From Roseiflexus sp. (lineage in GTDB: Bacteria; Chloroflexota; Chloroflexia; Chloroflexales; Roseiflexaceae): DNA of 38,267 nt. The notes under the pieces were generated by a model. The model was not told the origin of the DNA. It made no database searches and worked only from the letters and a program-made list of their open reading frames with translations. The DNA lies in the NCBI GenBank assembly GCA_017743475.1, contig JAGHYV010000044.1, positions 1-38,267 on the forward strand, written 5' to 3'. Of the stretch, positions 27,606 through 31,230 are shown in pieces (position 1 is the stretch's first letter; each line of letters opens with the position of its first letter). Both the position numbers and the translations under genes were made by a program.

Positions 27606-28313
27606 ATGCCACTTTCAGAGCACACCGAGTCCGTCCAGGACTATCTGAAAACTATCTTCGACATCCAGCGCGATCAGGGGCGGGTTTCCACCACGGCGCT
27701 TGCCGAGCGTCTGGGCAATTCGCCTGCTTCGGTCACCGGGATGCTCAAGAAACTCGCTTCTCTCAATTTGGTTGACTACGAGCCGTACCAGGGAGTAGTG
27801 CTCACACCAGCTGGCGAGAAGGTTGCGCTGGAAGTCATCCGCCACCACCGCCTGATCGAGCGTTACCTGGCGGAGGCGTTGGGTGTCCCGTGGGACCGGG
27901 TTCATGATGAAGCTGAAAAGTGGGAGCATGTACTGTCGGAAGACCTGGAGGACCGGATCGATGCAGTGCTCGGCTACCCGACGACCGATCCGCACGGGGC
28001 GCCAATTCCGACGCGCGATGGCACGCTGCCGCCACCGCATGCTACCCGCCTGAGCGATCTGCAAACTGGCCAGTCGGCAACAGTTGCCGAAGTGAGCGAC
28101 CATGACCCGGCGATGCTGCGCTATTTTGCAGAGTTGGGGTTGCGCCCCGGTGTTGATGTGACCGTCGTTGCCGTTGCACCCTTCGGTGGTCCGCTGACTG
28201 TGCGGCTAGAAGATGTTGAGCATTCACTTGGACGCGAGGTAGCCGGGTATATCGCCGTGTGTGATGTGACACCAGCTGAGGCGGGGGAGGAAGCGAACAG
28301 GGCAATTGAGTAA
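27606..28313 (+). CDS. DtxR/IdeR-family metal-dependent repressor with FeoA-like domain
   Basis: This encodes 235 residues. The winged helix (residues 8-65; TTALAERLGNSPASVTGMLKKL as recognition region) is followed by the metal-binding dimerisation domain (HHRLIERYL, WEHVLSEDLEDRID). The C-terminal SH3-like FeoA domain spans about 145-225. The DNA-binding and dimer parts match IdeR, DtxR and MntR; metal preference (iron or manganese) cannot be read safely. A matching operator in its own promoter points to autoregulation. tsaD is transcribed away on the other side, so the operator could also affect it. Confidence 0.93.
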   Translation: MPLSEHTESVQDYLKTIFDIQRDQGRVSTTALAERLGNSPASVTGMLKKLASLNLVDYEPYQGVVLTPAGEKVALEVIRHHRLIERYLAEALGVPWDRVHDEAEKWEHVLSEDLEDRIDAVLGYPTTDPHGAPIPTRDGTLPPPHATRLSDLQTGQSATVAEVSDHDPAMLRYFAELGLRPGVDVTVVAVAPFGGPLTVRLEDVEHSLGREVAGYIAVCDVTPAEAGEEANRAIE

Positions 28314-28319
28314 TGTGAC

Positions 28320-29480
28320 TTAACCTCGCGGAAACGTCGGTCTGATTGCCTCGCGCTTCAAAATATCCGGCAACTGATTCAGTTCATCGCCTGTGACCAC
28401 CACAATCTGGCGCGCCTGTGCCTGCGCACGGAAGGCCGCGAGCGCCTGTGCATCAGCTTTGTGCTGGCTGCGTGCTGTGATGAACAATGTGCCCACGAAT
28501 GAGCCACCGATCATGCTGGTAATCGCGCGCAGTTGATCGAGATGCTCGGTGCGAAACGGTCGCGCCTCTGTCTTGCATTCGGCAATCAGGAGCGAGGCGG
28601 CGTGCGTCGCTGCGAGATCGATCTGATTCATCGGCGAAAGCCCGCCCTGCGCAGGCATTTTGATGCCAGGACAGCAGTCATCGAAGCAACCGGCGCGTTG
28701 CGCTGCGTCCCAGGCGTAGATCTCCAGCCATGCGCCGTTGACGAAATCCCAGAATGCGCCATCTGCCTGAAGAATCTCGTAATGGTTCGAGTGCTGGTGT
28801 ATGGCAGAAATGAAACCGGCAGCCTGCGCCTGTTCACACCACTGAACCATTGTCGGCGTCAGGGAGAGCGCTGCAAGACGGCGCGGTTGTGTGAATCTGG
28901 CGTCAGCGTTTGCATTGCGCAGTATCTCACGGAACTCAATCGCTTCATCAGGCGCCTGCGCCATCTGTCGTGCAAGTGCTACCCACAGCGCCGGTGGAGG
29001 TGGCGCCGGTTGAGCCGAACGATTGTATATCTGGAGATAGTTCTCCACCGAAAGCCAGTATGGATCGCCGTTCGGCGGTTGACCGGCTAGCGTCACGACG
29101 CGCCTTCCAGCTGTGTCGAAATACCAGACGCTGGCGTTGCGCGCCTGTCCCTCCTCATATGCGCCAATACTCATGATTGTGGTGGCGCATGTGATATTGC
29201 ACACCCATCGGGCGCCGGGAAAGCGATCCATCACAGCAGCGCATTGCGCGCGAATATCGTTCAGATCGAACGCATCGACAGTTTGCGGGTCAAGCACTCG
29301 CGGACTGAGTTGCTCAAGGACGCGCCTGACCTTCTCCCATGCTTCGCCTGGACGCATCGCCTCACGCGAAGCAATCGGCGCAATGATGTCGGGGCGCAGG
29401 AACTGGGCGCTGAGCACATTTGGCGTCTGCCTGCCGCCGATCAAGACCAGTAAGGCAACGGGTGTTTTGACAGATGCCAT
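28320..29480 (-). CDS. CARF-nuclease of the Card1/Can2 (DUF1887) family
   Basis: This encodes 386 residues. The N-terminal CARF domain senses cyclic oligoadenylate in this family (VALLVLIGG, then NITCATTIMSIGAYE at about 95-109, where relatives have NxTGGTKxM). A linker follows, then a PD-(D/E)xK nuclease with Glu253 (GAWLE), Asp288 (MNQIDLA), Glu301 and Lys303 (IAECKT), and LDQLRAITSMIGGSFVGTLFI. These enzymes cut nucleic acid when type III CRISPR complexes make cA4. No cas gene or array is visible in this window. It lies 61 bp downstream of a protease-associated small gene and probably shares its transcript. Loss of GG and K in the CARF loop may alter ligand binding. Confidence 0.87.
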   Translation of the reverse strand: MASVKTPVALLVLIGGRQTPNVLSAQFLRPDIIAPIASREAMRPGEAWEKVRRVLEQLSPRVLDPQTVDAFDLNDIRAQCAAVMDRFPGARWVCNITCATTIMSIGAYEEGQARNASVWYFDTAGRRVVTLAGQPPNGDPYWLSVENYLQIYNRSAQPAPPPPALWVALARQMAQAPDEAIEFREILRNANADARFTQPRRLAALSLTPTMVQWCEQAQAAGFISAIHQHSNHYEILQADGAFWDFVNGAWLEIYAWDAAQRAGCFDDCCPGIKMPAQGGLSPMNQIDLAATHAASLLIAECKTEARPFRTEHLDQLRAITSMIGGSFVGTLFITARSQHKADAQALAAFRAQAQARQIVVVTGDELNQLPDILKREAIRPTFPRG

Positions 29481-29541
29481 ACTCTATCTCTCTGCCTGAA
29501 AGCTGGAGTGCACGACAATCATGCAGCATTATGTGTCTATC

Positions 29542-29907
29542 TCACTCCCCTGCTTCCGGTCGCGGCAGATCGGTGGTGATGTCGCCATCTTCGGCAACCT
29601 GGACAACGCCGGGCGCCTGGGAGAGTTCGTCGAGGGCGTGTCTGGTGGCGACAACAAAGAGGGTGTTGAATGCAGTTGGCTCGCTCACCTGGATCACTTC
29701 TTCACTGAGACCGTGCTCGTCGATCCAGTTCAGGAGCTGGGTTCGCATCTGCCCGTTGTGTTCCCGCAACCGGCGATACTTCTCTGCGCGATTGCAACGC
29801 GCCAGTATTTCGGCATTTGGGCGCTCGATGGTCACAACCGAGCGGACGAGGCGCTTTGGTCGACTCTTCAGTTCCGGCTCAGACTTCTTATTCTGTTGCT
29901 CACTCAT
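29542..29907 (-). CDS. Small I9-propeptide/inhibitor-like protein
   Basis: This encodes 121 residues without signal peptide. A Lys/Arg-rich N-terminus precedes a ferredoxin-like segment (NTLFVVATRHALDELSQAPGVVQVAEDGD, about 80-108). The pattern VxxxxxALDxLxxxPGVxxVxED is that of subtilase propeptides (inhibitor family I9), which fold and inhibit the protease. Its ATG overlaps the stop of the subtilase gene in ATGA, so the two are translationally coupled. It is therefore a candidate chaperone or inhibitor acting in trans. This function is inferred from fold pattern and context. Confidence 0.65.
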   Translation of the reverse strand: MSEQQNKKSEPELKSRPKRLVRSVVTIERPNAEILARCNRAEKYRRLREHNGQMRTQLLNWIDEHGLSEEVIQVSEPTAFNTLFVVATRHALDELSQAPGVVQVAEDGDITTDLPRPEAGE

Positions 29908-31160
29908 ACGACAAACCTCGCCAGCCCGGCGCCGACCCGTTCGGCAGGCGCCGATAACGGCAGCGCCGTTTCCAGCAGCCGCTGGCGCAGCGCTGCTCCC
30001 TGCAATCCGGGATTTGCCGAAGCAATCAGCGCTGCGATGCCCGCTACATAGGGCGCTGCCATGCTCGTGCCACTCATCCTGGCGTACAGACTACGACGTT
30101 GAAGATCTCGTTCCAGGCTTGACATAATGTTAACACCAAAACCGACAATATCCGGCTTTTGGCGTCCGTCGGGCGTCTGCCCGCTGCTGCTGCTAGGCCA
30201 GGGATTGAGATTGAAATCGACTGCGCCGACTCCTAGCGCTTCGGCATACGAGCCAGGCGCACGAATGATGCCGGGACCGTCGTTTCCAATGGCGATGACC
30301 GGCAGCACGTCGAAATCCTCTACCAGCGTGCGCAGCAACAGTTGCATCCCGTCGGTCACTGTTTTGAACGCTGGTGCGCTGATCCATTCCGGGCGGAAAC
30401 CGAGCGACATGCTGATGATCATCGGTTTGTGCTGGTTTTCCACCAGGCTGAAATGGGACAGCATCCAGTCCAGCGCAACGATAATCCGTTCCAGGCTGGT
30501 TTTAACTGTCTCGCTTTCGATCACTGCCGCTGCCAGCAGTTCGACACCCGGCGCGACACCGACATTGCGTCCGGCGATAATTCCGCATACGTGGGTTCCG
30601 TGACCATGGGTGTCGAATCCATTGACCGCGCGCATACTTTCGGGCGTTGGCATGAACGGCACATACCGGAATTCGATCCGTTTCCCGGCAAATTCGTTGT
30701 GGTCGGCGTCACAACCGGTATCGAGCACGCCAACAATGACCTGTTCGCCGGTAATCCCTTTGCGATGCGCTTCCTGAATCCCGCTCACATCAGGCCACTC
30801 CGGTGCGCGCGGACGGCGGAACCTGGTTTCGGTGCCGGTGCGCGCAACCGGTAGTGAGAGCGGCACATCGGGAACGATCAGGTAGTCGTCTGCGAGTATC
30901 TCACGCGCCTGTTCAGCCTGTCGATCGGTTGGCGCTTTGACGATATAACAACTCACGTGTCCCAGCCGCTCGAACCCATGACTGATCGGTTTCCGCTGAC
31001 CCGGCAGGTGGGGCCTTAATCCGAGACGGATCAACTCCATCGCGCGGCGCGATGTCTGTGCATCGCGCATAATCTCCGAGCGCTTTTCCGCAGTTGCAAC
31101 ATCGTGCAGCGCAAATGCTGCGGTTCGTGTTCGCTTGCGGACGGCAATAAATTTTTCCAC
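29904..31160 (-). CDS. Intracellular subtilisin-like (S8) protease
   Basis: This encodes 418 residues from GTG at 31160. The catalytic triad is Asp147 (GVLDTGCD), His187 (HGHGTHVCG) and Ser366 (SGTSMAAPYVAG). Oxyanion Asn293 lies in IGNDGPG. The N-terminal 100 residues lack any signal sequence, are basic, and carry a short alpha/beta part (VSCYIVKAPTDRQAEQAREIL...) that may be a partial propeptide domain. The start is uncertain: ATG at 31070 with GGAG is an alternative, and the frame reaches 31274 but an extended -10 box lies at 31227-31222 within it. The next gene overlaps by 4 bp and resembles an I9 propeptide. A cytoplasmic protease with a separate propeptide-like partner and a CARF-nuclease suggests a regulated response module. 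Confidence 0.88.
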   Translation of the reverse strand: MEKFIAVRKRTRTAAFALHDVATAEKRSEIMRDAQTSRRAMELIRLGLRPHLPGQRKPISHGFERLGHVSCYIVKAPTDRQAEQAREILADDYLIVPDVPLSLPVARTGTETRFRRPRAPEWPDVSGIQEAHRKGITGEQVIVGVLDTGCDADHNEFAGKRIEFRYVPFMPTPESMRAVNGFDTHGHGTHVCGIIAGRNVGVAPGVELLAAAVIESETVKTSLERIIVALDWMLSHFSLVENQHKPMIISMSLGFRPEWISAPAFKTVTDGMQLLLRTLVEDFDVLPVIAIGNDGPGIIRAPGSYAEALGVGAVDFNLNPWPSSSSGQTPDGRQKPDIVGFGVNIMSSLERDLQRRSLYARMSGTSMAAPYVAGIAALIASANPGLQGAALRQRLLETALPLSAPAERVGAGLARFVV

Positions 31161-31221
31161 AACTGACGAATGCCTGCTTCGGCGTAATACTACGTCTCGA
31201 ACGATGTTCCCAGTACTGCAC

Positions 31222-31230
31222 AGTATAGCA
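31222..31230 (-). promoter_or_regulatory. Extended -10 promoter of the subtilase operon
   Basis: On the minus strand, TGC-TATACT (TATACT at 31227-31222) is an extended -10 box about 60 bp before GTG 31160. No convincing -35 box is seen. Confidence 0.55.

Follow-up and report, generated by a model that had tools for sequence, protein, structure and literature searches.

The three genes that the original prediction had joined into one stress or antiviral response probably belong to two units lying side by side, a PopC/PopD-like pair of a subtilase and its detached partner, and an orphan effector of the Can2/Card1 type. They are found in the window analyzed here, a stretch of 38,267 nucleotides from a Roseiflexus genome. 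Compared across relatives, the subtilase and the 121-aa gene behind it form a stable two-gene unit in Roseiflexaceae, and Card1, judged by the same set of loci, is a neighbor and not a fixed part of that pair. The locus contains the following features:

31213-31230, minus strand: promoter-like element, an extended -10 TGCTATACT within the palindromic TACTGTGCAGTA, recognized by its presence in relatives.
29904-31160, minus strand: PopC-like, signal-less S8 subtilase of 418 aa, identified by Pfam Peptidase_S8 (8.7e-45) and by the catalytic triad in the alignment.
29542-29907, minus strand: PopD-like, propeptide-like partner of 121 aa, suggested by a sub-threshold match to NF048005, a fold model and a match to the N-terminus of a subtilase in cis.
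28320-29480, minus strand: Can2/Card1-type CARF-PD-(D/E)xK nuclease of 386 aa, identified by PF09002, PADLOC and Can2/Card1 profile matches.
27606-28313, plus strand: convergent dtxR/FeoA-type regulator (Pfam Fe_dep_repr_C 3.7e-32, FeoA 2.8e-21), a neighbor kept in relatives.

All three minus-strand ORFs lie where the original prediction had placed them. The 121-aa gene starts within the stop codon of the protease gene through a 4-bp ATGA overlap, and the ORF of the CARF nuclease follows 61 bp past the small gene on the same strand; both arrangements had been described beforehand and were borne out by the ORF coordinates. A scan of the 29480-29542 gap for promoter-like or terminator-like sites found none, in agreement with the original prediction, and since these 61 bp showed no separate promoter for Card1, transcription of the pair may continue into it. 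Relative to the sister genome G166, identity is 95% for the protease and 93% each for the small gene and the CARF nuclease, with dN/dS of about 0.10, 0.17 and 0.20, respectively. Because all three ORFs are kept in G166, they are genes and not chance ORFs. The convergent dtxR/FeoA-type regulator is the boundary of a variable gap and lies outside the protease-partner unit.

The protease and the small gene have orthologs in one and the same set of eight genomes: six from Roseiflexus, counting the window's own, and one from each of two sister genera. The overlap between the two genes is 4 bp in all eight loci, with both genes under purifying selection, and in Roseiflexus the conserved neighbors of the pair are dtxR, tsaD and a 3-hydroxyisobutyrate dehydrogenase-like gene. 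When public genome contigs were scanned with a profile of the small-protein alignment, six loci were returned, all among those already found.

For the subtilase, GTG at 31160 is the best start, since the alignment with relatives begins there and G304 carries an ATG at the same place. Numbered from this GTG, the catalytic residues are D147, H187 and S366, exactly as had been read from the translation, and they are invariant in an alignment of seven sequences. The protease had also been taken to lack an export signal, and a crude hydropathy test upheld this by finding no hydrophobic N-terminus (top 15-residue Kyte-Doolittle mean of 0.43 in the first 70 residues); its best PDB profile matches include intracellular subtilisins. 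The S8 domain is preceded by an N-terminal stretch of about 115 residues, for which profile comparison found no similarity to the small protein. A structure model of the protease, with a mean pLDDT of 37.5, was too poor for use.

The extended -10 element TGCTATACT lies ~55-70 bp upstream of the protease start and coincides with position 31230, the upper limit of the region singled out in the original prediction. Six of 7 relatives carry it ahead of the protease, and it is a putative promoter. The 18-mer palindrome TACTGTGCAGTA is present as a single copy in the window's genome and as a single copy in G166, so a role as the operator of a wider regulon was unsupported.

The sole meaningful curated-family match of the small protein was to NF048005, the PopC secretion inhibitor PopD. 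All eight small proteins match this family below threshold (3.5e-6 for the window, 1.5e-6 at best), with the PopD match far under the family cut-off at 27 versus 200 bits. Across 400 Chloroflexota genomes, the window and three sister loci ranked at the top for NF048005, all below the cut-off. Elsewhere in Chloroflexota the PopD profile gave weaker matches at E 0.0006-0.01, which were treated as noise, and the small protein had no credible relative in sequence searches of the PDB.

The partner had further been described as I9-like, a label that survives in part. The Pfam I9 model did not match the small protein at E up to 0.5 and a Pfam I9 assignment was rejected, whereas the predicted fold and a match to a subtilase N-terminus both point toward a propeptide. 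The fold is predicted to be beta-alpha-beta-beta-alpha-beta (ferredoxin-like) with a confident core (pLDDT about 90), which would be compatible with a subtilase propeptide, though not specific: a fold search with the model returned ferredoxin-like matches only, and subtilisin propeptides did not rank above NusG domains. Among 26 genomes of the family, the small-protein profile matched a single place outside its orthologs, the N-terminus of another subtilase ORF, in G306 (E 0.0014), and hhalign aligned the two with a probability of 85% over 51 columns, in this one case only, through the second half of the small protein. Such a match to a subtilase N-terminus in cis would be expected of a detached propeptide, hence the description as a propeptide in trans. 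With the PopD profile match alongside it, the idea of a protease plus a propeptide-like partner in trans was upheld, and the small protein is well supported as the predicted partner of the protease.

Coupling over the ATGA together with a propeptide-like partner supports a logic of the PopC/PopD type, and by this analogy the Roseiflexus pair most likely works like PopC/PopD. We infer that translational coupling across the overlap would co-produce the subtilase and its detached partner, and that the partner would bind in the active-site cleft and silence the protease in the cytoplasm. Removal of the partner, probably via its degradation under stress or starvation, would then free the protease.

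A serious rival, which we nevertheless consider unlikely, takes the small protein for a folding chaperone, that is, an intramolecular-chaperone propeptide moved to its own gene, and not for a regulatory inhibitor. Subtilase propeptides assist folding, and the profile link of the small protein to a propeptide segment in cis and the strict coupling of both genes would each suit this role. The protease retains its own ~115 N-terminal residues before the S8 domain, however, and intracellular subtilisins need no I9 propeptide to fold. PopD, the closest family, likewise restrains its protease and does not mature it.

The third gene had been called a Card1/Can2-type CARF-nuclease, and by its domain and profile matches it is a genuine CARF-PD-(D/E)xK nuclease of this type. 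The C-terminal PD-(D/E)xK domain matches PF09002 above cut-off (4.8e-12), the N-terminal CARF domain matches PADLOC CARF_PDDEXK / CARF4 (2.1e-34), and profile matches include Can2 (7bdv, 5.6e-28, with the alignment spanning the CARF domain) and Card1 (6wxw, 5e-9); the Pfam CARF_Card1 model scores just under its cut-off. Active-site residues D288, E301 and K303 are invariant in seven homologs. The CARF loop reads NITCATT in the window versus NVTGGTK in Can2, which makes the ligand uncertain and cA4 an assumption, and the ligand of this nuclease may differ from cA4. The form N(I/V)TCATT is kept in the clade that holds the window nuclease and the homologs in L067 and L068.

No cas genes were found in the neighborhood examined around the window nuclease. 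Cas10 and RAMP genes are present on other contigs of the same genome (G000), so that cyclic oligoadenylate could plausibly be supplied in trans. Card1 homologs in a genus of the same order (g5; 57-60% identity) sit beside Cas10/RAMP genes with the pair absent; the relatives in L067 and L068 are within Cas10/RAMP loci. The window's Card1 is most likely an orphan ancillary effector of type III CRISPR, and it would be switched on in trans by cyclic oligoadenylate from Cas10 of the genome's type III CRISPR systems. A 125-aa gene lies directly behind Card1 in three Chloroflexota genomes of more remote kinship (L070:8178-8555, L071:8677-9054, L072:8534-8911); the L070 copy had no Pfam match, and the gene is perhaps an accessory or ring-nuclease partner.

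The gap from the small gene to the convergent dtxR was readable in seven loci, the contig of G309 ending too soon. Card1 is intact in two of these (the window and G166), reduced to a C-terminal remnant with only the nuclease domain in two (G312 and G311), and absent from another two (the small gene abuts dtxR in G305, and none is nearby in G304). In G310 its position is occupied by a broken CARF7-RelE gene that keeps both ends but has lost its middle and its reading frame. The remnants in G312 and G311 are joined to scraps weakly matching DUF433 and DUF5615. Several of the relatives are metagenome bins, so that individual breaks could in part stem from misassembly, although the broken state differs in each of three bins.

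The Card1 remnants (L060:5085-5510 and L065:1470-1922) have an open reading frame and retain NQID...ECK. They are fused in frame to a DUF433-matching piece in L060 and to a DUF5615-matching piece in L065, and look as if a DUF433-DUF5615 gene pair came and went. The CARF7-RelE gene (L062:7044-7573) covers profile positions 2-136 and then 297-359 in another frame, and a search of 12 genomes with the CARF7-RelE model found no match besides the G310 locus.

This comparison bears directly on the proposal of a single three-gene antiviral or stress module, in which cyclic oligoadenylate would activate Card1, a linked step would free the protease and the two would act jointly. The genes share a strand and a 61-bp gap free of promoter or terminator, two species keep Card1 intact under purifying selection, and the recurrence of CARF effectors in Roseiflexus described below also speaks for a link. 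Yet the pair is regularly found without an intact nuclease, an outcome that the original prediction had itself named as speaking against the trio, the CARF gene being broken or absent beside a complete pair in 5 of 7 readable loci, and Card1 relatives occur elsewhere in type III operons without the pair. A single joint system is therefore unsupported, and the trio was rejected as a conserved unit on these loci. Among the papers searched, none tied CARF proteins to subtilases, and we regard the module as improbable.

In each of the five readable Roseiflexus loci the gap contains a CARF effector, whole or as remains, and two unrelated kinds of effector are represented. This occupancy is high for an unrelated neighbor and counts against the reading as two separate units. 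It may reflect a small CRISPR-effector hot spot or a loose functional link to the pair, and five related genomes are too few to separate the two. The same occupancy leads to a further idea, to which we give little credence, that the Roseiflexus pair cooperates with whichever CARF effector follows, so that cyclic oligoadenylate signaling and protease release make up one response in which the effector can be exchanged, Card1 serving in some species and CARF-RelE in another. We likewise hold out small prospects for a toxin-antitoxin-like or abortive-infection unit with the protease as toxin, the small protein as antitoxin and the CARF effectors as added cargo, for which one could cite the coupling of the protease to a small partner, the recurrence of CARF genes and of DUF433/DUF5615 scraps in the gap, and a match to the PADLOC 'subtilase' model (2.3e-28, from a possibly unspecific model that may catch subtilases generally), but the pair is vertically stable between conserved Roseiflexus neighbors, unlike mobile defense genes, and the small gene had no match in a plasmid collection. 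With two neighboring units as the preferred reading, the gap between the pair and dtxR would be a spot of CARF effector turnover. Card1 here illustrates the turnover of orphan CRISPR effectors at a single chromosomal site, and the locus cautions against reading adjoining genes in a single genome as one system.

The nuclease resembles Can2/Card1, whose function has been described (PMC9704534), in domain order, catalytic Asp and ExK, profile similarity and the presence of relatives in type III operons; it differs in being an orphan away from cas genes and in its CARF loop. CARF7-RelE effectors are represented by the broken member in the Card1 position of G310, but carry an unrelated effector domain and are absent from the window. 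The small protein shares with I9 propeptides and with free inhibitors that resemble them, for example the Plasmodium SUB1 propeptide-like inhibitor (PMC6993865), a predicted fold and the link to one subtilase N-terminus in cis, whereas it differs in lacking a Pfam I9 match, and the similarity of fold is unspecific.

The pair itself is not new in kind, as PopC/PopD has the same layout. In Myxococcus, the subtilase PopC has no signal peptide and forms a complex with PopD, by which its secretion is restrained; upon starvation PopD is degraded and PopC is released (PMC6434023). This precedent is also described in PMC4320627. Like PopC of Myxococcus xanthus, the Roseiflexus protease is a signal-less subtilase with an N-terminal part that has no known domains, and as in the popCD operon the gene for the putative inhibitory partner lies directly behind that for the protease, in the same gene order. 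The PopD profile is matched by all eight partners, though below threshold; the likeness is drawn from this profile and the layout. The ppGpp/FtsHD release step and the C-signal substrate are Myxococcus features, not evidenced for the Roseiflexus pair. PopC/PopD is known from a myxobacterial developmental pathway. The existence of a conserved relative with translational coupling in Chloroflexota would point to a wider regulatory use of intracellular subtilases held by a propeptide-like partner that can be detached.
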